Notes under the pieces: model-generated
Seen by the model: the letters and a program-made list of their open reading frames with translations, nothing else
Told to the model about the DNA's origin: nothing
Databases searched by the model: none
Part shown: piece after piece, positions 1-63,356 of the stretch
Layout of the letters: each line of letters opens with the position of its first letter
Position numbering within the stretch: position 1 is the stretch's first letter
Position numbers and translations under genes: made by a program
IMG/VR virus record: IMGVR_UViG_3300026292_000004
Coordinates: 26,509 to 90,508 of that record
DNA length: 64,000 nucleotides
From: a virus
Strand: one strand, 5' to 3'

Positions 1-28
1 CAAAAAAAGAAGGGGTCATGTGACCCCT
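1..28 (-). terminator. Rho-independent terminator of the late block
   Basis: A perfect 8-bp inverted repeat (positions 11-18 and 21-28, AGGGGTCA/TGACCCCT, 2-nt loop) is followed on the minus strand by a T-run (complement of 2-8). It sits just after the stop codon of the last minus-strand gene in the window, so it probably ends the late structural transcript. Confidence 0.8.
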
Positions 29-33
29 GACCT

Positions 34-270
34 TTATTCTTCAGTTGTGACTTCATCCACGGTCTCAACACCGCCAGGAGGACCGTCCTCAAGATACTGC
101 AAAGTCTCTAGAGCACCTTGCAATTTGAGAGCAGTAGTCTCATTTTCTTTAATTTTTGCTGCCAATTGATTGTTTTCATTAACCAATTTGGTTAGTCTCT
201 CAGTAAATTGAACTTTCAATTCTTCTGGAGATACCTTTTCAACTGGGCTTTCAGTTGGAGTTGCTGTCAT
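34..270 (-). CDS. Small coiled-coil protein, unknown function
   Basis: This 78-aa acidic protein is not assigned to a family. Residues about 15-60 form a heptad-rich segment (KLVNENNQLAAKIKENE) that predicts a coiled coil. The C-terminus is Glu/Asp/Thr-rich. The ATG at 270 overlaps the 3' end of the preceding 89-aa gene by 20 nt, so the two are probably translated together as the end of the late operon. A role as a tail-fibre or baseplate accessory or chaperone is a guess from position only. The terminator follows directly. Confidence 0.7.
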   Translation of the reverse strand: MTATPTESPVEKVSPEELKVQFTERLTKLVNENNQLAAKIKENETTALKLQGALETLQYLEDGPPGGVETVDEVTTEE

Positions 271-520
271 TTTCTTTATTAAGTAGAAGTTTCAGTAGGT
301 CTTTGACATCGCCTATATCAGATTTTAACCCATCTACGTCAGTTTGTAAAGTAGTAAAATCTTTTTTCTTAGCTTGCCTTGCCTCATATTGTGCCATGTA
401 CTCATCGTACTTGGTCATATTACAATTGACAATTGCATTTGATTCTGGATCACGATACCACCCATCCTGTCCTTCAACAGGAATGAGTTCATCGGTAAAG
501 TTAATTTTATTGTCAATCAT
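251..520 (-). CDS. Small protein with C-terminal coiled coil, unknown
   Basis: This 89-aa protein starts at the ATG at 520, which overlaps the TGA of the giant DUF4815 gene as ATGA, a translational-coupling arrangement. The N-terminal half carries a short motif (WYRDPESNAIVN) of the kind seen in phage proteins of unknown role. The C-terminal half (about 50-85) is heptad-like (DVDGLKSDIGDVKDLLKLL) and Lys-rich in the middle. It precedes the 78-aa coiled-coil gene and may act with it. Coupling to a virion gene suggests a structural or assembly role, which is inference. Confidence 0.75.
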   Translation of the reverse strand: MIDNKINFTDELIPVEGQDGWYRDPESNAIVNCNMTKYDEYMAQYEARQAKKKDFTTLQTDVDGLKSDIGDVKDLLKLLLNKENDSNSN

Positions 521-3500
521 TTAGCAAGTGCAATAGCACGGAAGTCAGAGATCAAAGGAACACGAGCTTGGTTTGTAGAACGCATTACAATTTTAACTTG
601 CATTGCATTGAAGTTCAAACCTTTCACTTCATATTCATAGTCTTTCCAAAGTTCCTCTTCTGTAGCAGTTGAGTTATAATTTGTTTGATAACCCATGTTG
701 ACCCACTGTTGCTCATCTATGTTACCAGTTGATCCAACAGGAACAACCTTATAATAGATTGAGATAGTAGTGTCAGGATGTCTACTAGCAGCGAACGAAA
801 CCGTCAAAGCAGTTGCCTTGGTTGCGAGTTTAGTTAGACGTGTAATGTATATAGCTTCGTTTGGATCACCCTTTGCTACGGTTGACCAGTCTGTATTTGT
901 ACTGAATCCACTGTCTCCACTCTGCATATAATAACCAGATCCACTAGTACTAGAACTAACAATATTGTTGATTCTATTAGAGGTGGTAATTAGAGAAGAA
1001 CGGTCAAGGTCAATAACAGGTGATACATTATCAGACTCACTAGTTAATATACATTCCATAGTGAATGATTTATTACCACTCAATTCATTATCTTCATTCA
1101 ACTTGGAGCATATAATACGAGGTGTTGGGAAGACATTTTGCTCATTTAAAATAATATCTTCAAATACACCATCATTTATAAATGACTGTTGAGTCATATT
1201 TGCTGCCTTACCATCATTCATTGACGTACCAGTAACAGTATTACATCTAGCACGAATTTCGGTCTTAGGTAGAACCATAGTCTTCATGTTAGGTGTCAAT
1301 ACTTCAAATGGTAAGTTCTGAGTTGCAACACCAAATAGACCACCTGAACGTATGCCAGCAGTAGCGACAGAATCCAAGTGAAGCATATAAGTGTCCATAG
1401 TAGGACAAGAGATTGAGGTATGTACCTTATTAATTTCTGTTAGAGGAACACCATCAATGTTGTAACAGAATATTGGTTCTGCATTAGCATGAGCAGCAGC
1501 CGTAGTACCACCAGCACCTCTACCAGCAGCATTAGGAACTGTGATGGTCTTTCCATCACTAGAAATTCCACTATACTGAATAATTTCATCTTCAATTTTT
1601 AAGTAACCAGGATTACTTACAGAGATTGCAACACCGTTAACTATCTGATGGAATACACCAGCAGACTCAACACTAATTGAAAGTGCGTCAGCAGCAAGAG
1701 CAGATGTCAATACAGTTGGAGCAATCTCAGATGTAATACCTGAAATTTCAACGTTGTTTCCACGATCATGCATACCGTGGTTCTGATGATAGATCCAGCA
1801 CTCACGTTCTGCATTATTATATGTTGGTTGTGCAACTGGGTATGCGTTAACACTATCACCAACGGCAGTAACACCACCACTAGCGTGTGAAGTAGCAAAT
1901 GCACCAGCAGCAGTACTATTTTCTTGGTCAATTTGATCGTTAGCAGGATCAAATACACCACTTACATAACGAACTGTTAATTGTGAAGGAACACCTGATG
2001 AACCTTCAGTAAATCCTGTAATTTGTGCTCTAGTAGAACTAGAAGATCCAACAACCCATCCACCTTCAACATTATTACCTGCATCAGGAACAGTGAATGT
2101 ACCTGTAACAGGGTGTGTTAGATATAAAGTAGCAGTAGCAGCAGAAGATACGATACCTTGTACTGTATTACCAGAGTTGTCTATAGATCCTGATAACCAC
2201 GATCCTTTAATATCAGTAATAGTAATTGTGTCAGGGTCAGTTGTACTATTGAATGCTGTAACAGTTGCTTCAGCGTTAGTAGTTTCTTGATACAGACGAG
2301 CACCAACTGATATAGTATAGTTAGTACCAGTAGCAAGTGTTAGAACCTGTTGAGGTTTCAATGTCTGAACTGGGTTCTCAACTAGAGTATGTGAACCAGC
2401 ATTTGCTAATCCAAGTTCTGCGTTTTCAAACTTAGCAAGACCACCAGCACTAGTATCAAACTTAGCACGGTAAATTGTAAACTTCAAATCTTCGTACTGG
2501 TCAGCAGTCCACGTAGATGCGTTCTGTGACTTGAATAGTACACCAGCGTAAGGCTGTTCTGATATAGTTCTATCTCCACCAATCTCTAGGTCTCCCATTC
2601 GGGATATCCAGATAGTATATTCGTTAGAGTCAGATAATAGAACGAAACAATATTCAGTTGACTGCTGAATATAAACAGGTGCTTGGAATACAAACGTTGT
2701 TGATACAGCAGCATTATCAGAAATTTCAACATCCTCTGGGTTTAAACTAACGTCAGAGAAAGGTAGAATAACTTTAGAAGGATAACCATTTTCCATAGCA
2801 CGAATCTGCATGGAGATTGGAATGTTCTTATCCTTACTTCCAAAGAATACGTCAACCTTAGTTAAGAATACTCCACCCTCAGTGTCAACAATAAAGGATT
2901 GTGCAACAGGGTCATACCAACCAATCTGTCTAACCTCAGTTCTAGTAGATCTAACAGTACGACTATCTGTAACAGTATCCATAACGACTTGAGCGTTACG
3001 TATTGAGTGGATAGTCTCTTGAACGGTAGTTAAAGTACCTCTTGCTGTAAAGTTTGCTTCAGCAGATGAATCAACTGTACCTGGAACTAGAGAGTTCTTT
3101 TCACTAGATGTAAATCTAATTTGTCTAATACCAGTTGCCCAACGTGGGTTAACGTTCTTAACTGGAGGTGGTATAAAGAAACAACCTCTAGCATATCCAC
3201 GCTTATCGGTAATAAGACGACGATCTTTAACAACAGCACGAGCACCAGATGTCTGTCCTATCAATACTTCTCCTACCTGAATATTACCTCTTGCTTTGTT
3301 ATTGGTAATCTTTGCCATCTGTGCAGCATTGTGGTTTAACAATGGTGTCTGAGATGAATAGGATGATGGTAGTGCAGCATCATCAGTTGAATATGGGTTA
3401 GTGTCATATACACTATTAGGTTTCAAAACTTTCAAACGAACGTCTGAAGTCATACCTTTAACAATTTCACCAACAACAAATGGTGTTTCATTTGTTCTAG

Positions 3501-6500
3501 CATCTTCAGTTGAGTTCTTAACTAACTCAATCAGTTTAGGAGTAATATAGTTACTAATCTTTTTCTTATCAAAGAAAGCATAAAGTCTTGTCTTAGGCTT
3601 AGCACGAGTAATAGTATAACGAATATTTCTGGATCTCATCCAAGGAATATTGGTTTGTGATAGAATTGAATCACCCTGTGATTGCCTTGTAATCTTAGGT
3701 ACAACACGAGTTCTGATACCTAAACGAGTTTGGTTGTTAGTAACAGTAAACTCACGACGTTGGTGTAGATAGAATAGACCTTGAGAACGACCAGCGTGAC
3801 CCAATCTACCTAATCTACGACCACCACCTAGGTTAGTTCTAGAACGGAAGTTACGAGTAGATCTTACTCTTTCACCAGTCCAGTTAGTTGTCCAACCAGT
3901 CCACTGAGTAGGAGAAAATCCATTCTTATCAACGTTAAGATCTCTTGATACTTGTGAGAAGTCACCTTCAACGTTCTCAACACGAGCAGGTAGACGCTTG
4001 ATGTCAACCCAGTCATCAGAGGATGGAAGAAGGTCAACACGTCCAATGAATGTGAATACGTTAAATGGGTTTACGTTCTCAAGTCTTGAAGCATATGGTT
4101 GCTCAATAATCTGTTCAGATTCATAAGGAAGAGTAGCAACTAATGCCTCATCAACATCATCTATATCCCAAGGAGTTAACATAATACCTGTTGAGGTAGT
4201 AGCATTAAACTCCAATGGGCAGTTATTGGTATAGTGAGAAGGTCTTAAATATCCATTCTGTATATCAATAGATGCTTTATAATCTTCGTTTAAAATGTCA
4301 CCAATAGTATGGTCAGTAAAGTCATCTACAACATAACCATTCTTAAATCTGTTTAAACCATCTTCATCGTAAGTAGTAGCATTCTGAGTCTCAGTTTCTA
4401 AAAGAGATAGTGAAGTATAGTATTCAACGTTATCTAATCTAGTTTCAATGTTACCAATGTCACGCATTGTATAACGTCTGTTATTCTCAACCTCTACTAA
4501 AATATCTCTTTCTGGATCATAGCAATATGGTTTATGTTCAAGAACTGCCAAGAGCATTGCTGAGTCCATATGGTCAGGTTCTTGAGGTTCCTCAGCAGAC
4601 TTACCTCTAACAATAGTAAATTCTCCATCATGTGTAAGGAATAATTTATCAATTCTTGGTAGATAATAATCAAAGTCACATCGGAATGATGTGCCAGTAT
4701 CCATTATATCAAAGACAGTTGAAGTAGCATCAAAGACACGGGATTCAAAGTCAAAACAAGTACAAGTCACATAGTATGGGTTTCCAACTGTACCAGAACC
4801 ATTAGCAAGTTCTTTAACACCTGGACGGAAATCAATTGTATCACGTAAGAACATAATACCGCCTTCTGGTTTCCAGTTAGGAATCTCAGAATAATCTATA
4901 CCAACATATGACTGAGCATTAAAGTAGTCTCCTGAAGACTCATGCTTGAAGTAGTCAAATACAACTGCTAATTGATGTCTTGGTTGCGAATAAGATCTTC
5001 CACGAACAAGTCTTGATACATCATAGTAATAAGAATCTTGTCCTGGTTGTAGGTTGAACTGTACAGTGATATCTGTTGATCCATTCTCAATTGCACCATC
5101 AGCATCAGAAACAAATGCTTGAATTGTTTCAGAGTTACTATTAACACCTGTTACAAGTTCACCAGGTATGAATGTACCATCAAGAACTACATGGTATAAT
5201 TTTAGTGTTGAAGAAACAAAGTCTACAACTGTTGCACGAGCACCAGAAGTTGTACCTTCAATAATAGTACCAGTTGCAAAGAATGCTGTTTCAACTAGAG
5301 TTACAAAAGGAACCTTAGCAGCTTCACCATCTAGTGATTCATATACTGCATGAATCTTATAAACGTCATTTAAACCAAATGTAATTTCCTCGTCTTCAAT
5401 ACGGGTTCCGTACTTGTTACTATAACCTAATCCAAATAATTGTTGATCCTGCTTAGTTCTAGTCTTATTGACTGCCATAACTTGCATCTTAGATGCAGTT
5501 TTAATTTTACGTTGGACTACAGACTTAGATAATGCAACTGTGGCTTTAATAGAAGTAATATTCTTAAGTCCAGTATTAGCACCACCTGGAGATGTTAACG
5601 TAGCAGTTTGTCTATCAGCACCAAATGTAATTGCAATAGTACCTGCATTAACAGCAGCTTCCATATCAATCTTAGTACCAGGACCAGCGTAGTCGTTGTT
5701 ACTACCACCACCTGTGTCAATAGTTACTACAAAGTTATCATTGGAGAATGTTTCAAACTGTTCATTCTCACCAAGAGTAATTGTTGTACCACCATTATTA
5801 ATACTGGTAGCATTGTAACTTCTATAAACTGTGAAGGACTCGTCAGAAATTGACTTAATGGAGTGCTTCGGCATGTCAATGGTAAGGTTACCATTCTGAT
5901 AATTCTTGAGGAATACTCTAGGTCTCATACGACCTACTTGCTGATAATCTCCATCTACAACAGTACCTATCTTATCTGCACCATCACATAATACAGTCTG
6001 AGCACCTGGTGTACCAAATATAACATTGGTTCCACTATTCTTATTAGCAGCAGTAACGTTAATATCAGATTGATTAACTTTCTCTGCTCTAAATGTATTG
6101 TTACCTACTTCATCAGATAGACCTACAGTTAGAACTTCACCTGGTCTTATATCTGAAGCATAGTTAGATGCAAATCCAGTCAGTTTTGTAGTAGGTATAC
6201 TACCTGTCAATACAACATTATGAGTTGAACCTTCAATCTGTTCAACAGTATTCAATAGAAGGTCAGCAGTAAATACTACTTGTGATGATAATGAAAGATC
6301 AGCACGTCCTACAACAGAACGAGTATCAGTAAATTCATATTCCCACAAAGCAGAAATAGATGTTAATGATACACCATCCAATTCAATAGCTTCTCCTTGT
6401 CTAAATCTACCTTTAACGTCTGTTAATTGAATAGTAGTTGTACTAATAGCACGAATAGATCCTATAGCACCTGAAGAAGCACCTCTAACGATCATTCCAG

Positions 6501-7971
6501 TCTCATTAAGAGTGGCAGATACATCAGCAGCAGTATTTAATACTGTATACATTTGCACGTCAAAGATGTGCAATTCATTACCTTCAGTAGCACCAGCAAT
6601 ACCACCATTAGTAAGGTTATTGCTTAACTGTGCACATCTTGCAAAACCAATTATATTACCTTGAGGTGTACCTTCACCAGCAACATCCCAGTCATCACGT
6701 AATTCAAGTACTTGATAGTTATAAGTTACGTTTGGTCCTGTAAGTAATGGCCAACCATATATGTTAGTAACTAGAACTGACTGTGCAAGTTCAAATGGAA
6801 TAATTGTATTCTGAACTGCCTTAGTATCTCTTGCTTTTGGAATATCAACATAAGTTGGTGCAAGGGTATGAAGTCTATAACCTCTTACATACGCTTTACC
6901 TGGAGCAATCTCAGCAGCAATATATTCATCAGATGCTGCTAGTCCAGCATCAGAACTTTCATCCTGTTGATACACACCATTATTAAATCCATCATCCTTA
7001 TGCTCACGCATAGTGATGTCAAAAGTATCAAGAGCATAGTCTCCAGACTCTTCGTAAGTACGAATAGCCATTGATCTTTCAAGTTCTGAGTATGCAGTCT
7101 TTTCTACAAACTCTTGTACCTTAGAGTTCTTAAGACGCAACAATTCTATAAAGTTTTTATCCGAGTCATCGTCTATTGCTTTCTTAACCAGAGTAGTTCT
7201 AATTCTAAATCTATGACCACCTGGAGCAGAGTAGTTTGACGTACCTGCTGCGTTATCATTTAGAGTTGGATCATCCTCAGAGGTAATAATTGATTCTGAT
7301 ACCTCAAGTCCTACTCTATATGATGGAGTGTTTGTATACTGGTCTAGAATAATATAACCAGTAGGAACATCAACAAAATATCCACGAATGAAATATACAC
7401 CTTCGTTAATATATGCTGCTGAAGCAGTTGCAGTAGCACCATCTGGTAACATCTGAGCGAAAGGTGAACCCATTTCAATCAGTGTAGTACCAAAAGTGAT
7501 GTCAGCATCTGCCATCAACTGTTCATTATTTTTAAATTGTTTAACATCTGTATCAGAAGTAGAGTCAGCAGAATCAATATACTTAACGTATAGTGTAATA
7601 TACCCCTTGTCTGATATAGTTGATGATATAGAATATAATACTTTTGCCTTAATACCTGTTGTAACACCAGTAATTAACTTACCTGTCAACTGTTCCCTAT
7701 ACAACTCAACGTCAGCCCCTAAGAAGTTTTGTTGTAAAAGAATAGCAGAAACATTTAAGTCATAACCAATTTGACCAGGTATAACCATCGCACCTTCTTT
7801 AAAGAAGTGCGTTCCCATGTTCTCAATCTGATTCTGCATGATTGATTGCATGGTCGTGAGTTCACGAGCCTGGATTGGAAACCCTGGTCGGAACAACACC
7901 TTATAAAAATTTTTATCCTTGTCAAAGTCGTCGTAATACGGCGTGACATTCAGGTTAGTATTCTGTGGCAT
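517..7971 (-). CDS. DUF4815-type giant baseplate/tail protein (gp10 position)
   Basis: A 2,484-aa virion protein. The first about 570 residues look like the DUF4815 family (start MPQNTNLNVTPYYDDFD, then FRPGFPIQARELTTMQSI), which in marine T4-type phages lies directly after gp8, where T4 encodes gp9/gp10. The middle is rich in short beta-repeat segments of the form GETVTGxxSGAxAxVxxF, typical of fibrous tail proteins. A basic stretch (about 1300-1400, RSRTNLGGGRRLGRLGHAGR) interrupts it. The C-terminus (about 2330-2484) is a compact beta domain. The protein probably forms a baseplate-peripheral or short-fibre component. The family assignment is from recognition of the N-terminus; the fold of the remainder is inferred. 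The stop is ATGA-coupled to the next gene. Confidence 0.8.
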   Translation of the reverse strand: MPQNTNLNVTPYYDDFDKDKNFYKVLFRPGFPIQARELTTMQSIMQNQIENMGTHFFKEGAMVIPGQIGYDLNVSAILLQQNFLGADVELYREQLTGKLITGVTTGIKAKVLYSISSTISDKGYITLYVKYIDSADSTSDTDVKQFKNNEQLMADADITFGTTLIEMGSPFAQMLPDGATATASAAYINEGVYFIRGYFVDVPTGYIILDQYTNTPSYRVGLEVSESIITSEDDPTLNDNAAGTSNYSAPGGHRFRIRTTLVKKAIDDDSDKNFIELLRLKNSKVQEFVEKTAYSELERSMAIRTYEESGDYALDTFDITMREHKDDGFNNGVYQQDESSDAGLAASDEYIAAEIAPGKAYVRGYRLHTLAPTYVDIPKARDTKAVQNTIIPFELAQSVLVTNIYGWPLLTGPNVTYNYQVLELRDDWDVAGEGTPQGNIIGFARCAQLSNNLTNGGIAGATEGNELHIFDVQMYTVLNTAADVSATLNETGMIVRGASSGAIGSIRAISTTTIQLTDVKGRFRQGEAIELDGVSLTSISALWEYEFTDTRSVVGRADLSLSSQVVFTADLLLNTVEQIEGSTHNVVLTGSIPTTKLTGFASNYASDIRPGEVLTVGLSDEVGNNTFRAEKVNQSDINVTAANKNSGTNVIFGTPGAQTVLCDGADKIGTVVDGDYQQVGRMRPRVFLKNYQNGNLTIDMPKHSIKSISDESFTVYRSYNATSINNGGTTITLGENEQFETFSNDNFVVTIDTGGGSNNDYAGPGTKIDMEAAVNAGTIAITFGADRQTATLTSPGGANTGLKNITSIKATVALSKSVVQRKIKTASKMQVMAVNKTRTKQDQQLFGLGYSNKYGTRIEDEEITFGLNDVYKIHAVYESLDGEAAKVPFVTLVETAFFATGTIIEGTTSGARATVVDFVSSTLKLYHVVLDGTFIPGELVTGVNSNSETIQAFVSDADGAIENGSTDITVQFNLQPGQDSYYYDVSRLVRGRSYSQPRHQLAVVFDYFKHESSGDYFNAQSYVGIDYSEIPNWKPEGGIMFLRDTIDFRPGVKELANGSGTVGNPYYVTCTCFDFESRVFDATSTVFDIMDTGTSFRCDFDYYLPRIDKLFLTHDGEFTIVRGKSAEEPQEPDHMDSAMLLAVLEHKPYCYDPERDILVEVENNRRYTMRDIGNIETRLDNVEYYTSLSLLETETQNATTYDEDGLNRFKNGYVVDDFTDHTIGDILNEDYKASIDIQNGYLRPSHYTNNCPLEFNATTSTGIMLTPWDIDDVDEALVATLPYESEQIIEQPYASRLENVNPFNVFTFIGRVDLLPSSDDWVDIKRLPARVENVEGDFSQVSRDLNVDKNGFSPTQWTGWTTNWTGERVRSTRNFRSRTNLGGGRRLGRLGHAGRSQGLFYLHQRREFTVTNNQTRLGIRTRVVPKITRQSQGDSILSQTNIPWMRSRNIRYTITRAKPKTRLYAFFDKKKISNYITPKLIELVKNSTEDARTNETPFVVGEIVKGMTSDVRLKVLKPNSVYDTNPYSTDDAALPSSYSSQTPLLNHNAAQMAKITNNKARGNIQVGEVLIGQTSGARAVVKDRRLITDKRGYARGCFFIPPPVKNVNPRWATGIRQIRFTSSEKNSLVPGTVDSSAEANFTARGTLTTVQETIHSIRNAQVVMDTVTDSRTVRSTRTEVRQIGWYDPVAQSFIVDTEGGVFLTKVDVFFGSKDKNIPISMQIRAMENGYPSKVILPFSDVSLNPEDVEISDNAAVSTTFVFQAPVYIQQSTEYCFVLLSDSNEYTIWISRMGDLEIGGDRTISEQPYAGVLFKSQNASTWTADQYEDLKFTIYRAKFDTSAGGLAKFENAELGLANAGSHTLVENPVQTLKPQQVLTLATGTNYTISVGARLYQETTNAEATVTAFNSTTDPDTITITDIKGSWLSGSIDNSGNTVQGIVSSAATATLYLTHPVTGTFTVPDAGNNVEGGWVVGSSSSTRAQITGFTEGSSGVPSQLTVRYVSGVFDPANDQIDQENSTAAGAFATSHASGGVTAVGDSVNAYPVAQPTYNNAERECWIYHQNHGMHDRGNNVEISGITSEIAPTVLTSALAADALSISVESAGVFHQIVNGVAISVSNPGYLKIEDEIIQYSGISSDGKTITVPNAAGRGAGGTTAAAHANAEPIFCYNIDGVPLTEINKVHTSISCPTMDTYMLHLDSVATAGIRSGGLFGVATQNLPFEVLTPNMKTMVLPKTEIRARCNTVTGTSMNDGKAANMTQQSFINDGVFEDIILNEQNVFPTPRIICSKLNEDNELSGNKSFTMECILTSESDNVSPVIDLDRSSLITTSNRINNIVSSSTSGSGYYMQSGDSGFSTNTDWSTVAKGDPNEAIYITRLTKLATKATALTVSFAASRHPDTTISIYYKVVPVGSTGNIDEQQWVNMGYQTNYNSTATEEELWKDYEYEVKGLNFNAMQVKIVMRSTNQARVPLISDFRAIALAK

Positions 7972-7985
7972 CTTAGGGACTTATA

Positions 7986-9518
7986 TTAGAATTCAATAAC
8001 AACTTTAATGTCTTCAATCTGGTCGTTAGCACGAGAAATCGTACGTCTATTATCTATGTAGATAAGATTACCAGAGTTAGACTCTATCTCAGGTTTTGCA
8101 TAACCAGAGGTAAATCTCATACCTAGGTCATATTCGGTGTTGTTAATAACACGAGAAGAGGTGTTAGGAACAGCAGGGAAGTTCACATCTGGGTCGCCAG
8201 AAGCACCAGACGAGGAACCTTGAATGGCATTAGAACCATCAAACTCGTTCAAAGAACCAGTAACAGCAGGGAAAATACCATCAACTCTATTTTGATAATA
8301 CTTAAGAACCTTAGTTGTTGAGTTCCAAGAAATAACCTTACCAGTTGCAGTAACAGACTGACCACCCACAATACGAGTTTGTGTAATTGTTTCGTCAGGA
8401 ATGAAGTTACCTTGGAAGGTTGTTGGGAAGATAACTGCTCTTGCAGCAGATAATGTTAGATCAGAAAGAAGTTCAGTAGTACCATACTTCTTAGGATTAG
8501 TGCAAAGACCAATACGACGATAATCGTTATCAATCGGGAAGTCTCCAGCACCTTCATCATATGATAGTTTAGCGTTAACCATAACACGGTAAGCACCCAC
8601 TTCCACTACTGGGTCTTTACCATGACCACCTGGAGGTGGAATGATAACGTCAATTTGACCACCAGTTCCAGTACCAATACCAGAAACTGAGTTAACGGTT
8701 ACTTTACCAAAGGAATATCCAGTACCACCAGATGTCACAGTAGCAGAAATAACACGACCACCATCAACCACGATGGAAACACGTCCACCAGTTCCATCTC
8801 CAGCAATCGCTACGTTATCATATGTACCATTGTTATAACCTGAACCAGATGAAGTAATGACAACAGTGTCAATTTCACCAGCAACAGCGTTAGAACTTAC
8901 TGAAGCATCTGAGAATACAGGCATGTAATCAGCAGAGAAGAACTTCAGAACCTGTGCGACAGGAATAGTATACATATACTTCCAACGATACCCGTCAGAA
9001 GTAGTGATGATGGATGTAGAAGTACCAGTAGGTTCAATGGTAGAAGGCTTACCATTAGGGTCAGCAGGAGAAGTACCGTTATAAATGCACTTATATACTT
9101 GGTAATTGGAGTTAACGACATAGAAGTCAGAGTCATACAACTTAGTAGCACCAGACGATGCTGTGTTAGTTGGTGAGTAGTCATGACGATACATGTCATA
9201 AGTATAACCCAAACCACCAGTAGTTTGTTCTGGGGGAATCCAGTCAATACGACGTACGACTTGAATCGTGTCAGCAGCAAGAACACGCTTCAATGACATC
9301 ATATCATCGTAAGCATCAGAGAACTCATCAAATGAGTCTACCGCTTGCGGCGGTGAGTTTTCGTTGTCCCATTCTTGGGGACGACCAATAAAGATGTATA
9401 GACGATCTCTATCATCACCCGCAGTTGTGTCACTTGCCAGAGGATCTGGTCCTTCTAGTGACTTAATAAACTTCTGGGCTGTAAATATTCTAAATTGATC
9501 AGTAAGTAGTGCTGCCAT
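7986..9518 (-). CDS. 8: Baseplate wedge protein, gp8-like
   Basis: This 510-aa protein has a start (MAALLTDQFRIFTAQKFIKSL) and an early segment with WxPP and SDGYRWKYMYTIP that match the gp8 family of marine T4-type phages. T4 gp8 is 334 aa, so this copy is longer; the extra length is glycine-rich GSGYN/GGTGYSFG beta repeats at about 200-290. In T4, gp8 dimers sit in the baseplate wedge between gp6/gp7 and gp10. The order here (gp6, gp7-position giant, then gp8, then DUF4815) agrees. A TATAAATA late promoter lies 24-31 nt upstream of the ATG at 9518. Confidence 0.75.
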   Translation of the reverse strand: MAALLTDQFRIFTAQKFIKSLEGPDPLASDTTAGDDRDRLYIFIGRPQEWDNENSPPQAVDSFDEFSDAYDDMMSLKRVLAADTIQVVRRIDWIPPEQTTGGLGYTYDMYRHDYSPTNTASSGATKLYDSDFYVVNSNYQVYKCIYNGTSPADPNGKPSTIEPTGTSTSIITTSDGYRWKYMYTIPVAQVLKFFSADYMPVFSDASVSSNAVAGEIDTVVITSSGSGYNNGTYDNVAIAGDGTGGRVSIVVDGGRVISATVTSGGTGYSFGKVTVNSVSGIGTGTGGQIDVIIPPPGGHGKDPVVEVGAYRVMVNAKLSYDEGAGDFPIDNDYRRIGLCTNPKKYGTTELLSDLTLSAARAVIFPTTFQGNFIPDETITQTRIVGGQSVTATGKVISWNSTTKVLKYYQNRVDGIFPAVTGSLNEFDGSNAIQGSSSGASGDPDVNFPAVPNTSSRVINNTEYDLGMRFTSGYAKPEIESNSGNLIYIDNRRTISRANDQIEDIKVVIEF

Positions 9519-9541
9519 GGCCTATGGGGTTTCCTCCGTTT

Positions 9542-9549
9542 TATTTATA
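9542..9549 (-). promoter_or_regulatory. T4-type late promoter (TATAAATA)
   Basis: The minus strand reads TATAAATA, an exact match to the T4 late -10-like element recognised by the gp55 sigma factor. It lies in the gap before gene 8, ending 24 nt upstream of its ATG, and overlaps no other coding sequence. Confidence 0.75.
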
Positions 9550-9550
9550 C

Positions 9551-12500
9551 TCAGTCGTTGCGGATACTTGTATCGTAGGTTATTCTCTTTATTCTCCAAG
9601 AAGCACCACCCGCACCAACGAGCTTCTCACCACCAAGGATAACCTCAGCGACTGCACCACTTCCTGTAGTATCAATTCCTGCATTTGTAAATGTCACAGT
9701 AGGGTGCAAAGTACCTGCTGTAACTACTTTCTTATATCCGTAACCACCATTGGTCACAGTTAAAGAACCAACCTGGTCACCGTCAGATGTCATATTAACA
9801 ACTGCCTGTGCTTGTATCTCACCAGAATTTTCAATTACAACTGTTGGAGTTGCAGTATAATCAAGTCCTGGTTCCAGTACCCTAACCTCTGTCACAGTAG
9901 AATCATCAGAGAACTCATAGAAATAACCATTTGTTCCGAGGTTTAGATTGTTAGTAAAGTATGGAAGTGGGTTGATAAGAACTAGAGTTCTAGTTGCTTG
10001 CTCCCATGATTCCACCGTTGCTTGAATATTAGAACTTTGTCCTGTTACAGTCTCACCTACAACAAATGCTATACTATTAGTATCTGTTGTTGCTAATGTT
10101 ACTCTTATTCTAGCAGTATGCTCAACACCATCTCTTAATGCTCCAGCAGATTCAACCGTGGAGTACTTAAATGGTATAGAAGCATCTTTTACTTGATCAC
10201 CAATTGCGAAGATAGTAGTATTCTGACCACCAACGGTTTCTTCAATACCATATAATGAACTATGTATCCCACCATCTAAGTTAATTTGGTCGGCATAATC
10301 AGTTCCAGTATTGAATACATCAGGAATACCATCACCTGCACCTGAAGCTTCAGCATCATCTTCAAATGCTTTGTCTGTCAAAGTTAATTGATAGACGACA
10401 ATATTACTTCCTACCTCATCTATAATGTTATGTGGTAACTGTGTATTGTTTGATGCATTAGGAGTACCACCATCAAAAGCAACTGTTCTATCTGAAGTAG
10501 ATGGAATACCAGCATCAATGAATGCCAACTCATCAACTTGGAATACAATTAACAGTTCTCTACTTACTGGGTTCCAGTCATAAACTTTAGCAATCTTATT
10601 ACTTGCACTCTCAACCTTACGAACTAACCTATCTCCAACATTAAATTCGTATGTTGATACACCATCAACGTTCTGAATACCATCAACTATAACTCTCTGG
10701 TCATATCTAAAGTTAGTACCTCTAGTACATCCTAAGAATTTTTTAGTATTTTTACTAGTATATTCAATGATCTCCTTACCGATCATGAATTTTCCAGATC
10801 CAGGATAGGCATCTGTACTATCTACAACTACTTCTTCATCGTTAGTATCAAGAGATTTTTGAAGACCAGTAACAAAGAAACTAGCAGCATTATAAGACTG
10901 ACGATTTCTAACCTTTCTTTTTACATTAACTAATTTAGTAAATATTATATTAGGTGATGATGTATATCCTCTACCTGGATCTATAACATCAATACCTACA
11001 ACTTCACCTTGATCAATCCTTGCAGTTGCTCTAGCACCAACTCCACCACCACCTTGAATGTAAATATATGGTGGTTCTTGATAGAATCTACCTGGATTAG
11101 TAACAGCAATATTAGTAACTATACCACTATAATCAATGTTAGCAACACCCTCAGCATCTTGTCCACCACCACCTTGGAAGAATAAAGTTGGTGGAGTTAT
11201 ATAACCAGAACCAGGATTATCTAATGATAAACCACTTATAGACTGTGTTACGGGAATAGCAGTAGCACCCGTACCTTCACCACCAAGAATATCTGCTCTT
11301 GCTTCACCAAAATATCCATCACCACCAGCAATCATCTTAACATATTCAACCTGACCAGCATTAGTTTCACTAAGAACAACTTCTGCTCTAGCACCGCTAG
11401 GTACTTCAGATGCTTGTACAGGAGGATTTGCACCTTTTCTAACTACATCACCATAATAAGTATTACCAATAGCATAAGGGTACTCTGGAGTCCCATCAGC
11501 TGCCGTTGTCATAAAGTATGCATAAGTTCCATTTGGATACTCAGGAGTTACACAATACCTACCATTATGCTCATCAAGATCACCTTCAGTAACATCCCAA
11601 ATATAATCTGAAATGAATGTACCAGCAGGATAATTTAGAATATTAGTCTTATTACCCATGTTAGGATGCATATAACAGAAGTAATGCAAATTAGCAGGTG
11701 CAAACCAAGGAACTGTAATTACAAGTTTTCTATTAGTAGCAGAGGTGTAATTAGAAACATACTGAGAATAGGTTACTTCTGCATTATTAATATAATACTT
11801 AACACCACGTTCATAAAGAACATCTTGATCATATAAGGTTTGACTATCTGCATGCCAACCTTGCTTATCTGTTTCTCCAGCAAAATCTGTTAATAGTAAT
11901 ACATGACCATCATTACTTGCATCATCTAAATTAAATGTAACTGTATCACCACGATTAATAAGTTCAATAGGTGCTACAACTCCATCTAATAAGAACTTAC
12001 TATTAGCAGTAGTAACAACATAAGTTGTATTAGTAGGTGTATTGATTCCTACTCTATTACCATCAATTTCAACACCAGTTTTAAACCTATAACCAGTATC
12101 AATTCTCTTAATTGCAGACTGATCATCTAATGGTGTTGTATAACCAAATGGTCCATATATCGGATACCCATCATATGATATACCTAAAACCTTACTATGT
12201 CCGTTAGTATGACGTGACTTATCTCCACCAAAATTAGTTTCATTATAATAAGTCTTAATTGTAAATAAACTATTGGCAGCAGCAAATGAATCAACTACCT
12301 TAGCATCTTGGAACAAATATAAATGATCATTATTTGGATACCCATGATAAGCATCATGATCTCTATAATTTATCTTAATCTGATCAAAATTAAATCCAAC
12401 AGGAGGAGTACCATCTGATCCTGCATCTGGAGATATTAATGGTGATCCATTAGCAAGTAATCCAACCTGTTCAGGAAGACGATTAGGATTATTCTGTTCA

Positions 12501-12988
12501 GGAACATCTTTACCACCACGATAAACTATCGTATGAGAATATGTCTGACCAAAAATATTATTGTTATTAAATGTACTAGGAAATACTCCTGTCCTAGCAG
12601 GATCTGGAAGATTGTTAGATACTAGTGTTAACCTATCTCCAGCAAATGCTCCTGTAGTAATAGATGCAGTTGTACTACTTAAAATACTTCTGATATCAAA
12701 AGAATCGTTGGTTAAGTTATCATCCTGTTTTGCTGTTATAACAACACGCAAAGGATCATACCCTTTACCACCATTTAATACTCTTACATGAACAACCTTA
12801 CCAGCTTCTATTATTGGATATAATATTGCTTCAATCTCTGGTGTACCACAATTAGTGATATCTAACTTAGGTGGATCTGTAGCAACATAGTCTTTACCAC
12901 CGTCTTTAACGACAACAGCATCTACACCAAAGTCTTTATTAAAGATTGGTGTAATAACTGCTCCAGATCCAGGTATTGTTCTCGTCAT
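9551..12988 (-). CDS. Virion protein: YHYH-type domain carrying a cupredoxin domain
   Basis: A 1,145-aa structural protein. Residues about 1-90 are a beta repeat. Residues about 100-290 are the first part of a YHYH-type domain (GHSKVLGISYDGYPIYGPFG). Residues about 345-455 form a cupredoxin-like domain with a candidate type-1 copper ligand set: His362, Cys438, His441, Met444 (FCYMHPNMG). The YHYH domain then resumes (DLDEHNGRYCVTPEYPNGTY). From about 560 the chain is glycine-rich repeats of the GSGYITPPTLFFQGGGG type and further beta repeats. This looks like a domain inserted within a domain. Copper binding is inferred from the ligand pattern; a host-surface or fibre role is inferred from position between gp8 and the other YHYH genes. 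The gene begins 3 nt after the upstream gene's stop. Confidence 0.8.
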   Translation of the reverse strand: MTRTIPGSGAVITPIFNKDFGVDAVVVKDGGKDYVATDPPKLDITNCGTPEIEAILYPIIEAGKVVHVRVLNGGKGYDPLRVVITAKQDDNLTNDSFDIRSILSSTTASITTGAFAGDRLTLVSNNLPDPARTGVFPSTFNNNNIFGQTYSHTIVYRGGKDVPEQNNPNRLPEQVGLLANGSPLISPDAGSDGTPPVGFNFDQIKINYRDHDAYHGYPNNDHLYLFQDAKVVDSFAAANSLFTIKTYYNETNFGGDKSRHTNGHSKVLGISYDGYPIYGPFGYTTPLDDQSAIKRIDTGYRFKTGVEIDGNRVGINTPTNTTYVVTTANSKFLLDGVVAPIELINRGDTVTFNLDDASNDGHVLLLTDFAGETDKQGWHADSQTLYDQDVLYERGVKYYINNAEVTYSQYVSNYTSATNRKLVITVPWFAPANLHYFCYMHPNMGNKTNILNYPAGTFISDYIWDVTEGDLDEHNGRYCVTPEYPNGTYAYFMTTAADGTPEYPYAIGNTYYGDVVRKGANPPVQASEVPSGARAEVVLSETNAGQVEYVKMIAGGDGYFGEARADILGGEGTGATAIPVTQSISGLSLDNPGSGYITPPTLFFQGGGGQDAEGVANIDYSGIVTNIAVTNPGRFYQEPPYIYIQGGGGVGARATARIDQGEVVGIDVIDPGRGYTSSPNIIFTKLVNVKRKVRNRQSYNAASFFVTGLQKSLDTNDEEVVVDSTDAYPGSGKFMIGKEIIEYTSKNTKKFLGCTRGTNFRYDQRVIVDGIQNVDGVSTYEFNVGDRLVRKVESASNKIAKVYDWNPVSRELLIVFQVDELAFIDAGIPSTSDRTVAFDGGTPNASNNTQLPHNIIDEVGSNIVVYQLTLTDKAFEDDAEASGAGDGIPDVFNTGTDYADQINLDGGIHSSLYGIEETVGGQNTTIFAIGDQVKDASIPFKYSTVESAGALRDGVEHTARIRVTLATTDTNSIAFVVGETVTGQSSNIQATVESWEQATRTLVLINPLPYFTNNLNLGTNGYFYEFSDDSTVTEVRVLEPGLDYTATPTVVIENSGEIQAQAVVNMTSDGDQVGSLTVTNGGYGYKKVVTAGTLHPTVTFTNAGIDTTGSGAVAEVILGGEKLVGAGGASWRIKRITYDTSIRND
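11640..11955 (-). other. Cupredoxin-like domain with full copper ligand set
   Basis: This encodes residues about 345-450 of the 1,145-aa protein. The spacing Cys-x2-His-x2-Met (Cys438, His441, Met444) with an upstream His362 is the arrangement of amicyanin-type blue copper proteins. The same C-terminal signature occurs in the neighbouring 394-aa protein. Confidence 0.65.
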
Positions 12989-12991
12989 TTA

Positions 12992-14176
12992 TTAAGTTAC
13001 GATTACGATTTGGTTGCCCATAGTGGGATGCATGGTACACTGATAATATAATGTTGCTGGTGCATCCATAGGTACTGTGAATGTAGTTGTACCAGAACCA
13101 TCATTAGTCACTCCAGCAGTATAAGCATTACCACCATTTGATTGTCTTATCTCAAATGGATGAACAACATACTGTGAATCATTCTTAAATCTATAGACTT
13201 GTCCTCTTTGTAGATAGAGGATAGGATCATTAGTAGCACTTACAAATCCTGAACCAGTAAATGTATAGTGACTATTAGTTCCATCTTCACCTAGAGTCCA
13301 TGTTAATGTTGGACCTGAAACTGGAATCCAGTCAAATCCATCATACATCAGCATGTCTCCTTCAGCTACACCTGTTCCTTCATAGGAGAATCCACCAGAA
13401 CCAGTATAGTTAATGGTTAAGGTGTCACCAGTAATACTGGTTGTTATAGATGTACCACCAGTAACAGTTAATGTATCAGTTGCTCCAAGAGCAGTTGTTG
13501 TACCAGTGTCAGCATTGATTGTAGCAAATATATTTCCACCGCCAGCCCCGCCACCAGTTCCAGGTCTAAACTCACCATTAGCAGAATTCCAGGTAGGAAC
13601 TTCCCCGTCTGCATAAGTTGTACTTTGAACATTACCAATACTTTGTAATGTAGAAGTAGAAGTGTCTAAGATCTCACGCCATCCAGCAGCTGCTGAATAG
13701 TATGCTTTACCTACATCATTAACATAGGCAAACATTCCTGTATACGTTCCATGTGCAGGAAGATTAGCAGATGCAACATAAGGAGCATTCCACTTTAGAA
13801 ATCCATCAGCACCATCAATAATAGTATCGGTAGCATTAGTACCATTTCTTAAAGCAATATCACCACTTCCATCCGATTGAATTACAATATTACCATTACC
13901 TGAAGATACAATGTTATATCCATTAACGTTTAAATTCTGTTCTAACGTTGCTTTATTAGTACCTTGACCTGGAGCAAAAGCAGTACCATTCCAAGTCAAA
14001 GAATCTCCTAAGTTAGGAGATGCAGTACTTACTAGAAGGTTTCCTGCTCCAGCCGATCCACCTAATGAATCATAGAGTTCTGTGAAATTTTCATTGACTT
14101 TAGTACCACCAGCACGTAGTGAATCACCAGTGCCATCATTAGCTGTAGTACCAAGTGCTAGTAGTTGTTTTGCCAT
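12992..14176 (-). CDS. Fibre-like protein with C-terminal cupredoxin domain
   Basis: A 394-aa protein. The N-terminus (LALGTTANDGTGDSLRAGGT) is a typical tail-fibre attachment or repeat start in marine myoviruses. Residues about 30-260 are low-complexity Thr/Gly/Asn beta repeats. Residues about 285-394 form a cupredoxin-like domain with His339, Cys380, His383 and Met386 (YQCTMHPTMG), matching the Cys-x2-His-x2-Met spacing of amicyanin-type sites. It is placed between two YHYH-domain genes, so a distal tail or baseplate location is likely. The ATG at 14176 lies 18 nt after a CATAAATA late-promoter match. Metal binding has not been shown and is inference. Confidence 0.78.
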   Translation of the reverse strand: MAKQLLALGTTANDGTGDSLRAGGTKVNENFTELYDSLGGSAGAGNLLVSTASPNLGDSLTWNGTAFAPGQGTNKATLEQNLNVNGYNIVSSGNGNIVIQSDGSGDIALRNGTNATDTIIDGADGFLKWNAPYVASANLPAHGTYTGMFAYVNDVGKAYYSAAAGWREILDTSTSTLQSIGNVQSTTYADGEVPTWNSANGEFRPGTGGGAGGGNIFATINADTGTTTALGATDTLTVTGGTSITTSITGDTLTINYTGSGGFSYEGTGVAEGDMLMYDGFDWIPVSGPTLTWTLGEDGTNSHYTFTGSGFVSATNDPILYLQRGQVYRFKNDSQYVVHPFEIRQSNGGNAYTAGVTNDGSGTTTFTVPMDAPATLYYQCTMHPTMGNQIVIVT

Positions 14177-14193: not shown

Positions 14194-14201
14194 TATTTAT
14201 G
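14194..14201 (-). promoter_or_regulatory. T4-type late promoter (CATAAATA)
   Basis: The minus strand reads CATAAATA, one base from the T4 late consensus, 18 nt upstream of the ATG at 14176. It overlaps the stop codon of the preceding gene. The same variant at the same distance precedes two other genes in this block. Confidence 0.6.
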
Positions 14202-15051
14202 AAGGTCTCTGTTCTTTAGTACTAGGACCGAAGATGTATGGGTAAACTGGCTTGTTATCCTCATCTAATGTGAGGTAATAAGCAAATGTACCACTAGGAA
14301 ATTCAGGAGTAACTGCGTATCTACCATTATAAACATCAAGGTCTCCTAAACCATTTACGTATTCATAATCTTGGATAAAAGTTCCAGCATTATATTGGCT
14401 GTAACTATATGTCCTATTCGCAGGTGGAGTAGTTAATACTCTATATGAACTAGTGAGTCTTTTAGTTCCTTGTGAATTATCAGTTGAAACTTTATACCCA
14501 AATGGTCCATATATCGGATACCCATCAAAACATACACCAACGATCTTTGAATGACCATCAGGATGTCTAAAGAAGTTACCTTCATAGTTGGAATTTGAGA
14601 AGTATCCATTGGATTGAATTACTCCGTTTGCCCAACAGTTAGTAAGAAAACTTCCTGAATGATAATGATATGATCCATTCTGCTCTGGGTGACCCCCACA
14701 AGGGTCTACACCGTACGCTTCTTCATTATATACTGCATTCCATTGAAAGTTCGCTGGTAGAGCATTAGTATCACCAGGTAGAGGACCACCAGCCGCAGAA
14801 GGGTTGGTCATCAATACACCATTAAGTGCAATACCTATACCACCAAGACCAGTTGCTTGAGGGTTAGAAGTATTAGTTCCACCTCTATATGTAATATCAA
14901 AACTATAAGTTTGTGCAGAGATATTGTTAGGATTATTAGGAAAATTCCCAGAACCTAAAGGATATCCAGCCAAAGCAGGATCGGGAAGACCATTACTTGT
15001 TACAGTAAGAGTATTCCCATCAATAGTAGCAGTAGTATTAGAAGCTGGCAT
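14197..15051 (-). CDS. YHYH domain-containing virion protein
   Basis: A 284-aa protein covering most of a YHYH domain. The name-giving YHYH tetrapeptide is at residues 128-131 in GSYHYHSG. It is preceded by a conserved N-terminal strand (TVTSNGLPDPALAGYP) and followed by GHSKIVGVCFDGYPIYGPFG and DLDVYNGRYAVTPEFPSGTF. Such domains are common in marine phage and bacterial surface proteins, but their biochemical role is unknown. Two neighbours, the 1,145-aa protein and the 9,243-aa protein, carry related domains that lack the YHYH tetrapeptide. A CATAAATA late promoter lies about 19 nt upstream. Confidence 0.85.
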   Translation of the reverse strand: MPASNTTATIDGNTLTVTSNGLPDPALAGYPLGSGNFPNNPNNISAQTYSFDITYRGGTNTSNPQATGLGGIGIALNGVLMTNPSAAGGPLPGDTNALPANFQWNAVYNEEAYGVDPCGGHPEQNGSYHYHSGSFLTNCWANGVIQSNGYFSNSNYEGNFFRHPDGHSKIVGVCFDGYPIYGPFGYKVSTDNSQGTKRLTSSYRVLTTPPANRTYSYSQYNAGTFIQDYEYVNGLGDLDVYNGRYAVTPEFPSGTFAYYLTLDEDNKPVYPYIFGPSTKEQRPS

Positions 15052-51290: not shown

Positions 51291-52262
51291 ATGTCTTTAA
51301 TCTATTCCATTACAAATACAATCAATCAGAAGAAATACATTGGTAAAACATCAAGAACTATTTCACAACGTATTAACGAACATAAGCAAATTGCATCTGG
51401 TAATAGTAACAATAAGGGTGCAATTCATCATGCTATTAGTAAGTATGGTATTGAAAACTTTTCTATTAAGTGTATAGAAGAGTGTGATACTAATAGAGAA
51501 AATGAGCGTGAAATCTATTGGATTAAGATGTTACAAACCCATGTACAATATGGTAAAGGTTATAACATGACTAAAGGTGGAGATGGTATTACTTTAGCAC
51601 GTGAAGATTGGGGCAAACATATACATTCAAAACCTGTAAGTAAGTACGACTTAAATGGTAATCACATGGAAGATTACGACTCTATGGGATTAGCGTTAAC
51701 TGCAATCCTTGGGAAAAGTAAAAGATTACATGGTAAATCTGCTATTAGAAAATGTTGTACTGGGGGACAATCTTTTGCATTTGGTTATAGATGGAGTTGG
51801 AAAGATTGTCCTCTCCCAGATGTTAGTCACTTGCGTGATTATTCCAAGGGTAAGATATACGGTATTAATAAAGATGGGCGTACTAAATGTTGGTCAACTC
51901 AATTGGATTGCGTTAAAGAAATATCAAATAACCCCAAAGATAATAGCGGGATGAGTTTATCTTTAAGCAGTGAAGTTGACGCTAAAAGATGTACTTTTGG
52001 ATGGTATTTGTTCTATGATAAGAAACAATGTGCATTTGGTAAGTTTACACCTATGGTAAAAGGTGGGAGACCTAAAGGTACAAATAAGGTGAGATTTAAG
52101 GGCGTTAAGTATAACAATCCAGAGGACATTGTTTATTACGATTCATACCTAGATCTTAAAAAAGAGTATAAGTCATATGAGAATATTTACCGTAATATTC
52201 ATAACATAGAAATGGGTAAAAAGTGGTCTAAATGTTATGATCGTCAGTGGTATAAGGTTTAG
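51291..52262 (+). CDS. GIY-YIG homing endonuclease, freestanding
   Basis: A 323-aa protein and the only plus-strand gene in the window. The N-terminal 95 residues are a GIY-YIG nuclease domain: LIYSITNTINQKKYIGKT, then an Arg in SRTISQRINEHK, a Glu in EREIYWIKML and an Asn in YNMTKGG. Residues about 115-168 (KPVSKYDLNGNHMEDYDS... GYRWSW) resemble the NUMOD1/IENR1-type DNA-binding repeats of homing endonucleases. The C-terminus is less conserved. Such genes in T4-type phages are mobile and cut a related phage's DNA. Its reversed orientation and bracketing 10-bp direct repeats fit insertion between phage genes. Confidence 0.88.
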   Translation: MSLIYSITNTINQKKYIGKTSRTISQRINEHKQIASGNSNNKGAIHHAISKYGIENFSIKCIEECDTNRENEREIYWIKMLQTHVQYGKGYNMTKGGDGITLAREDWGKHIHSKPVSKYDLNGNHMEDYDSMGLALTAILGKSKRLHGKSAIRKCCTGGQSFAFGYRWSWKDCPLPDVSHLRDYSKGKIYGINKDGRTKCWSTQLDCVKEISNNPKDNSGMSLSLSSEVDAKRCTFGWYLFYDKKQCAFGKFTPMVKGGRPKGTNKVRFKGVKYNNPEDIVYYDSYLDLKKEYKSYENIYRNIHNIEMGKKWSKCYDRQWYKV

Positions 52263-62428: not shown

Positions 62429-62661
62429 GAGTTTAATACCAGTATAAGTCTTGTTACCATTAATATTATAATAATGTAGTAGGTCCACATTATCCACATA
62501 CCTATTTTATTATGCCTACTTCCACGTTGATATGGGTGACAACCTGATGGTGTTTTGTCCCATCCTGCTTGCATATACTCATCAGGATGTATCTTCCTGT
62601 TAGGATCTCTCTTAGGTCTATCCCAAGGTCTATGGTCATCTAAATTAAACCAGCGTTTCAT
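62425..62661 (-). CDS. 78-aa protein with C-terminal membrane span
   Basis: The first about 50 residues are basic/polar with many Pro and Asp (DDHRPWDRPKRDPNRK; DKTPSGCHPYQRGS). The C-terminal about 25 residues (GMWIMWTYYIIIILMVTRLI) form one hydrophobic span. It is ATGA-coupled to purC. Function unknown; the layout (soluble N-terminus, C-terminal anchor) suggests a membrane-tethered host-takeover or lysis-related protein. Confidence 0.72.
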   Translation of the reverse strand: MKRWFNLDDHRPWDRPKRDPNRKIHPDEYMQAGWDKTPSGCHPYQRGSRHNKIGMWIMWTYYIIIILMVTRLILVLNS

Positions 62662-63356
62662 GATTGAAGTGAGTCTAGAATAGTATTATATGCCTCCACT
62701 ATATCACCTTGTCCTTTCCTAAACAAGTCTTTGTCAAAACTCTTACCATCTTTCCAGAGTCGCATCGAGTCAGGTGATAGTTCATCAGCAACGAGTATAT
62801 TTTGTCTAGAATCATAACCAAACTCCAATTTAAAATCAACAAGTGTAAGACCTATATCTTTAAAGGTCTCTGTTAGTATAGCATTAATTTCTCTTGCTAG
62901 TGCCTTTAATAGGTTTAAGTTGGTACCAATATTGGTAAACTTCATTAATGCTATGCGATCCTCTGTAAGTAATGGATCATCTTTATCATCATCCTTCAAA
63001 TAAAACTCTACCAATGGTTCAGAGAGCACTGTGCCCTCTTCTATGGTAGTTTGTCTGCATATACTACCTGCTGCTACATTCCTTACCACAACCTCTATTG
63101 GTATGATCTCAACCCTCTTACATGCCATTGCTTGATGAGTTGGCATATTAATATAGTGAGTATCAATACCATTCAATTCAAGTAATTGAAAGAGACACTC
63201 AGATATCTTACAACATACCTCTCCTTTACCTTCGGGGAAATCTACCTGCCTACCATTACCAGCAGTGACCTTATCTTCATATTGTATAAGAACAGTTTCA
63301 GTCTCATCAGTTGAGAATACTGTCTTAACCTTGCCCTGAGTTATCGTTGTTTTCAT
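62658..63356 (-). CDS. purC: SAICAR synthetase PurC
   Basis: A 232-aa protein, close to the E. coli PurC length (237). It has GKVKTVFSTDE at the N-terminus (ATP-site strand), a KRVEIIPIEVVVRNVAAGSI segment (substrate-site region), LVDFKLEFGYD, and ADELSPDSMRLWKDG near the C-terminus. It joins aspartate to CAIR in purine synthesis. Phages of this group use such genes to keep nucleotide supply up during replication. The typical N-terminal EGK is here QGK. It is coupled to the 78-aa gene and overlaps the 119-aa gene by 32 nt. Confidence 0.93.
   Translation of the reverse strand: MKTTITQGKVKTVFSTDETETVLIQYEDKVTAGNGRQVDFPEGKGEVCCKISECLFQLLELNGIDTHYINMPTHQAMACKRVEIIPIEVVVRNVAAGSICRQTTIEEGTVLSEPLVEFYLKDDDKDDPLLTEDRIALMKFTNIGTNLNLLKALAREINAILTETFKDIGLTLVDFKLEFGYDSRQNILVADELSPDSMRLWKDGKSFDKDLFRKGQGDIVEAYNTILDSLQS

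Follow-up and report, generated by a model that had tools for sequence, protein, structure and literature searches.

Predicted cupredoxin modules in two baseplate proteins of a T4-like marine cyanophage and the conservation of their type-1 copper ligands

Does the baseplate of a marine phage carry blue-copper sites and, if so, what might they do there? The question is raised by two consecutive genes in a stretch of 64,000 nucleotides, hereafter called the window, from the virus record IMGVR_UViG_3300026292_000004, which has 90,508 bases in total. Their products, of 1,145 and 394 residues and hereafter abbreviated as proteins A and B, each present the His, Cys, His and Met residues typical of type-1 copper proteins. 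The original prediction, which was made from the letters of the window, had left the choice between a redox function, metal scavenging and simply a stable fold.

Baseplate setting and ligand residues

Protein A is encoded at 9551-12988 and protein B at 12992-14176, both on the minus strand, in a record with T4-type baseplate genes (gp6-like, gp25 and gp8). As had been claimed, the two genes sit between that of a gp8-like baseplate wedge protein (7986-9518, minus strand; 60.8 bits to Pfam Phage-Gp8, PF09215, and phrog_438) and that of a stand-alone YHYH protein of 284 aa without a cupredoxin domain (14197-15051, minus strand; 132.9 bits to PF14240). The next feature is a single ORF of 9,243 aa (15073-42804, minus strand), and giant virion proteins occupy the equivalent place in other cyanophages. 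Elsewhere in the window we noted a GIY-YIG domain protein at 51291-52262, encoded on the plus strand and hence opposite to its neighbours, as well as a gene for SAICAR synthetase at 62658-63356 on the minus strand.

Gene order was inspected in 15 cyanomyovirus regions around a B-type gene. The succession of giant ORF, B and A is present in 10 of these regions (L092, L096, L101-L104, L106, L109, L111 and L112), while in three others (L099, L100 and L110), as in the window, a single gene separates the giant ORF from B; L105 shows B and A with no giant ORF annotated and L107 has a different order. In 10 further regions the cupredoxin domain belongs to other proteins or settings. The giant ORF just upstream of B in Syn19 carries the cluster name T4-GC969, and T4-GC969 has been detected in S-SM1 virions (PMC3037559). 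Baseplate wedge proteins are also listed for the S-CREM2 virion, in passages that do not name the families of A and B (PMC10665884).

Protein A, an orthologue of T4-GC 399, matches phrog_708 (baseplate wedge subunit) with an E value of 0 and 1686 bits, while protein B belongs to phrog_677 (baseplate wedge tail fiber protein connector; 7e-130) and scores 31.6 bits against the T4 gp9/gp10 N-terminal family PF07880, above its gathering cut-off of 25. These relationships support the assignment of A and B as baseplate proteins of a T4-like marine cyanophage, each predicted to bear a cupredoxin module, with presence in the virion following by homology.

All eight ligand residues proposed originally were found at their positions when the translations were checked. 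In protein A, the codons of His362, Cys438, His441 and Met444 lie at 11903-11905, 11675-11677, 11666-11668 and 11657-11659, respectively, whereas those of His339, Cys380, His383 and Met386 in protein B lie at 13160-13162, 13037-13039, 13028-13030 and 13019-13021, all on the minus strand. The order of the ligands is that of type-1 copper sites and the C-x2-H-x2-M spacing of both proteins corresponds to a short loop of amicyanin length, which we take to be the amicyanin loop type. The motif CxxHxxM occurs twice in the 17,932 residues of the 17 ORFs of the window, against 0.05 expected, and two or more occurrences were reached in 2 of 2000 shuffles of these ORFs, values that rule out a chance origin of the pair.

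Domain architecture and kinship with copper proteins

Protein B consists of a T4 gp9/gp10-like N-terminal part, a fibre-like middle and a C-terminal cupredoxin domain, which spans residues 290-394 (12995-13309, minus strand) and contains H339, C380, H383 and M386. The match to T4 gp10 itself (E 7e-7) covers only residues 3-90 of B, and no match to T4 chains is listed for the cupredoxin part. In the AlphaFold model obtained with 38 sequences, residues 290-394 form a cupredoxin with block means of 88-95 pLDDT (about 90), the values being lower outside this region. Foldseek searches with the model returned 12 PDB chains at E<=0.001, all of which are rusticyanin or three-domain copper nitrite reductase; their TM-scores are low because the query was the whole model of 394 aa. 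The best match in VIA-align is Hyphomicrobium NirK 2dv6 (Z 10.1, 2.4 A over 95 residues), and rusticyanin 2cal has a Z score of 8.5. The fold prediction does not separate the four residues of B, which all lie in a high-confidence cupredoxin matching type-1 copper proteins, and the model thus supports a cupredoxin beta-sandwich fold for the C-terminal domain. The B model is also matched, with an E value of 4e-6, by two predicted beta-sandwich proteins (BFVD A0A481Z6J5 and A0A481YWX9) from giant viruses resembling Pithovirus and Marseillevirus.

The domain organization of protein A had been missed in the original prediction: the protein contains a YHYH domain of its own, in which the cupredoxin is inserted. 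The match to YHYH PF14240 (80.3 bits, above the gathering cut-off of 25) is split into two stretches around the cupredoxin domain, which covers approximately residues 318-450 (11639-12037, minus strand) and holds H362, C438, H441 and M444. This single cupredoxin occupies the later loop of the YHYH domain, hereafter loop 2, between the GHSK motif and the C-terminal piece, where the alignment of the stand-alone YHYH protein of 284 aa shows a gap. The name-giving motif is missing from the YHYH domain of A, which has DHLYLF in place of the SYHYH of its neighbour; the stretch without the motif extends approximately from 12190 to 12690 (minus strand), and the loop-1 cupredoxin of relatives with two copies sits nearby.

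The AlphaFold model of the A region is poor, with a mean pLDDT of 39.9 and values of 50-90 in the cupredoxin stretch, and its best structural match has a Z score of 7.1, to multicopper oxidases. The domains of A and B share 30% identity (E 9e-7) and each is detected by a profile started from the other, the domain of A reaching 7.5e-31 in the iterated profile. The cupredoxin fold of A is therefore predicted from its homology to B, together with a structure model that is weak by itself.

Neither A nor B matches any of the Pfam copper families, including Copper-bind PF00127, at E<=1, and for this reason databases name them only as wedge proteins. A profile of 31 rows of the family matches nitrite reductase (5.6e-7), plastocyanin (3.6e-5), rusticyanin and amicyanin chains; its rows were picked for an intact ligand quartet and the invariance of the ligands within it is uninformative. 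When this profile is aligned with plastocyanin, the His, Cys, His and Met of the family fall on a His, Cys, His and Met of plastocyanin that are its copper ligands. The tail-spike copy of P-SSM2 scores 23.3 bits against PF00127, above the gathering cut-off of 21.2. Membership of the amicyanin family proper (TIGR02657) was rejected, the score being 15.8 bits versus a curated cut-off of 110.2.

A petE gene for plastocyanin is present in the same virus record outside the window (G000:C1:13362-13607, locus L196), in line with a cyanobacterial host; its product has a signal-like N-terminus and 71.7 bits to PF00127. The possibility that A and B are misread petE genes was dismissed, as the genuine petE maps to a different part of the record and A and B are baseplate proteins. 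In a comparison of 16 cyanophages, petE appears in the row for '10 genomes' (PMC3037559).

Distribution and conservation of the ligand set

Among 50,697 phage records searched by tblastn, 346 contain the B domain and 290 the A domain, many of them being near-copies. The B-domain records are labelled Synechococcus (263), Cyanophage (54), Prochlorococcus (23), Marine (4), Pelagibacter (1) and uncultured (1), so that 340 of the 346 are cyanophage-named, as are all the A-domain records. With a single-sequence query, no close relatives were found in cellular genomes; an alignment used as the query yielded 15 loci, among which L199 and L200 look phage-like and L201 secreted when judged by eye, and these loci, found via a pattern holding the ligand Cys, were kept out of the ligand counts. 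The same applies to 80 more loci, for which one of two search patterns held the Cys; they contain 112 domains, 95 with CxxHxxM. The T7-like cyanophage P-GSP1 has the module near the N-terminus of a 666-aa protein (L093, 4001-4303), which suggests that it has moved between phage families.

The set used for ligand counts comprised the window and 195 loci, giving 319 domains in 237 ORFs, of which 126 are non-redundant at 80%. Most of the counted loci were found without ligand patterns, by YHYH patterns or tblastn, while two sets of six patterns each included one with the Cys-His loop. Among the non-redundant domains, 82 have all four ligands and 36 have none, with three ligands retained in 4, one in 4 and two in 0. 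The 82 complete quartets compare with 27 expected if the ligands were independent, which is a naive baseline, and with a maximum of 40 in 2000 permutations.

The distribution of intact quartets follows the type of copy. After removal of identical domains, the quartet is intact in 66/66 B-type (connector) copies and in 49/56 of other domain copies. It is also intact in 53/54 loop-1 copies of wedge proteins with two copies, the remaining one having Tyr for Met, and in 17/21 single-copy wedge domains, of which the other four keep His/Cys/His with Lys for Met. Conversely, none of the 54 loop-2 copies of the two-copy wedge proteins has the quartet, a class in which at most three members are ligand-informed, as L101, L179 and L192 were moved to it by a second-signature rule. 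When wedge (A-type) proteins are tallied per ORF, with 'A' and 'B' labels given by simple text patterns, 85 of the 92 unique ORFs have exactly one intact site: 62 with two copies, one of them intact, and 23 with a single intact copy. The others are five single-copy ORFs with H/C/H only or otherwise incomplete, one two-copy ORF without a full quartet and L087, with seven copies of which four are intact. The last is a virus protein of 3,187 aa (1-9561; L088 is listed alongside), in which the three other copies are degenerate. Many other cyanophages have an extra copy in an earlier loop of the YHYH domain (loop 1), and in these cases loop 1 is intact and loop 2 disarmed.

The retention of the quartet in 66 of 66 B-type and 53 of 54 loop-1 copies, together with losses that are all-or-none, supports purifying selection on the ligand set, and the all-or-none losses mark the four residues as one functional unit. 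The disarmed loop-2 copies retain positions such as R324, G325, F330 and Y352 at 100%, with the four ligands at 0-2%; Y378, a non-ligand residue beside the Cys, is also at 0%. In a tree built without the ligand columns, loop-2 copies, intact and disarmed, lie on one side (99) and loop-1 copies group together (99), with five changes between intact and lost states in all, although this tree has few columns and many weak forks. The grouping of the loop-2 copies suggests that the loss of their ligands was probably about one old event, the 54 copies not being independent. The pattern indicates that the ligands drift together once the other copy carries the site, while the fold is retained. Sister copies of this kind provide a natural control, namely the same domain with and without its predicted metal site within one protein.

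These results bear on the proposal that the domain is only a stable fold, a sandwich serving as Ig-like decoration or receptor-binding module in which the ligands are leftovers. The loop-2 copies that keep the fold without ligands, and the three degenerate copies among the seven of L087, agree with it, and the persistence of ligand-free copies implies that the fold has a non-metal use as well. However, the quartet is maintained throughout the B-type copies and nearly all loop-1 and most single-copy wedge domains despite low overall identity, and its losses are not piecemeal. Conserved ligands, alongside paralogues that keep the fold and lose all four, argue for metal binding and render this option, one of those originally offered, improbable.

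Whether the metal would be copper is a separate matter. Zinc or another structural metal could occupy the site in the virion, considering that the cytosol in which assembly takes place buffers copper tightly but offers zinc, and that one clade has Lys in place of Met, where zinc is more possible. Against this, Cys/His/His/Met is the classic ligand set of copper, and Met is retained in 82 of the 86 domains with three or more ligands; we consider zinc quite unlikely. Domains that retain His/Cys/His but have Lys, Gln or Tyr instead of the axial Met were seen in L133-L136, L139, L050 and L160, and in known type-1 sites the axial Met is the variable ligand.

Possible roles and comparison with known systems

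The cupredoxin of these phages is a genuine and conserved feature that has gone unannotated, the fold being known but its setting new. A metal site, with copper as the metal, is likely to be present in these virion proteins, and the virus particles probably carry copper, to judge from the conserved residues. We infer that copper-loaded, solvent-exposed modules are displayed on the baseplate and its fibre connector. Protein B would be anchored via its gp9/10-type N-terminus, presenting the C-terminal cupredoxin away from the baseplate; each B trimer would expose three cupredoxins, hence about 18 per virion if the T4 stoichiometry, which we assume here, holds, and A would contribute one further site per copy. 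As the virion is assembled in the copper-poor cytosol of the host, the proteins would probably start in the apo form and acquire copper once the cell has lysed, the source being the copper-rich lysate or seawater.

The most likely mechanism seems to us a copper-dependent docking module, an idea that we advance tentatively and at somewhat less than even chances. Copper would fix the ligand loop and the exposed-His face, and the latter would contact a component of the cyanobacterial surface before or during the triggering of the baseplate. Known cupredoxins contact their partners via this exposed-His face.

A different use of the metal would be scavenging, or a 'Trojan horse', in which displayed copper is bound by a metal receptor of the host. 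The near confinement of the domain to cyanophages fits this proposal, and cyanobacterial hosts need copper for plastocyanin. Yet a type-1 site buries its copper and holds it tightly, which makes a poor lure, and no host copper receptor has been implicated. For iron, a version of this hypothesis that involves HxH motifs of the tail fibres has been proposed for marine phages (PMC11705849). On balance, copper scavenging is unlikely to be the function of the module.

A redox switch would involve electron transfer between the copper and a donor at the cell surface or in the periplasm, altering the baseplate and signalling contact. The module indeed retains the four ligands that make up an electron-transfer site, its best structural matches come from electron-transfer proteins or copper enzymes, and a true plastocyanin is encoded in the same record. 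However, no redox partner is known at the outer surface, and host plastocyanin, which sits in the thylakoid lumen, is beyond the reach of the baseplate. A trigger based on electron exchange with the cell surface is possible, if improbable, and less likely than copper-dependent docking. A broader scenario would have the type-1 sites of the baseplate and fibre connectors, numbering in the dozens and loaded after lysis, act as a metal- or redox-gated contact sensor for the cyanobacterial surface, the wedge protein being selected for exactly one live site, which moved between YHYH loops as the old copy was disarmed; taken as a whole, this is speculative and we regard it as rather doubtful.

T4-like cyanophages of marine waters belong to the commonest viruses of the oceans. 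Should blue-copper sites be present on their baseplates, the virions would represent a store of bound copper and their adsorption might be governed by copper chemistry; a further metal centre would also be added to the iron and zinc known from phage tails. Our literature search brought up no article dealing with cupredoxins of phage tails, baseplates or virions, which is weak evidence of absence, with subscription papers and preprints outside its scope. In the texts consulted, the phage YHYH domain has been proposed as a Zn hydrolase (PMC7824862) and listed among host-recognition domains (PMC7029224), and the words 'copper' and 'cupredoxin' have zero occurrences in both.

Compared with amicyanin, plastocyanin and rusticyanin, the phage modules are alike in fold (for B), ligand order, C-x2-H-x2-M loop length and the ligand-on-ligand alignment with plastocyanin, but those proteins are free periplasmic or lumenal carriers, whereas here the domain is a module of phage baseplate proteins. 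The three-domain copper nitrite reductase NirK 2dv6 contains the cupredoxin domain that is the best structural match of B, but neither its enzyme domains nor a type-2 site were detected here. The T4 connector proteins gp9 and gp10 resemble the N-terminal anchor of B, although the resemblance to gp10 stops short of the cupredoxin part. Protein A shares the phage YHYH domain, which the cupredoxin splits into two pieces, yet lacks the motif that its 284-aa neighbour retains. Finally, the petE plastocyanin of phages has the same copper fold and accompanies A and B in this record, but petE products are secreted and serve the cell as carriers, in contrast to the structural proteins A and B.
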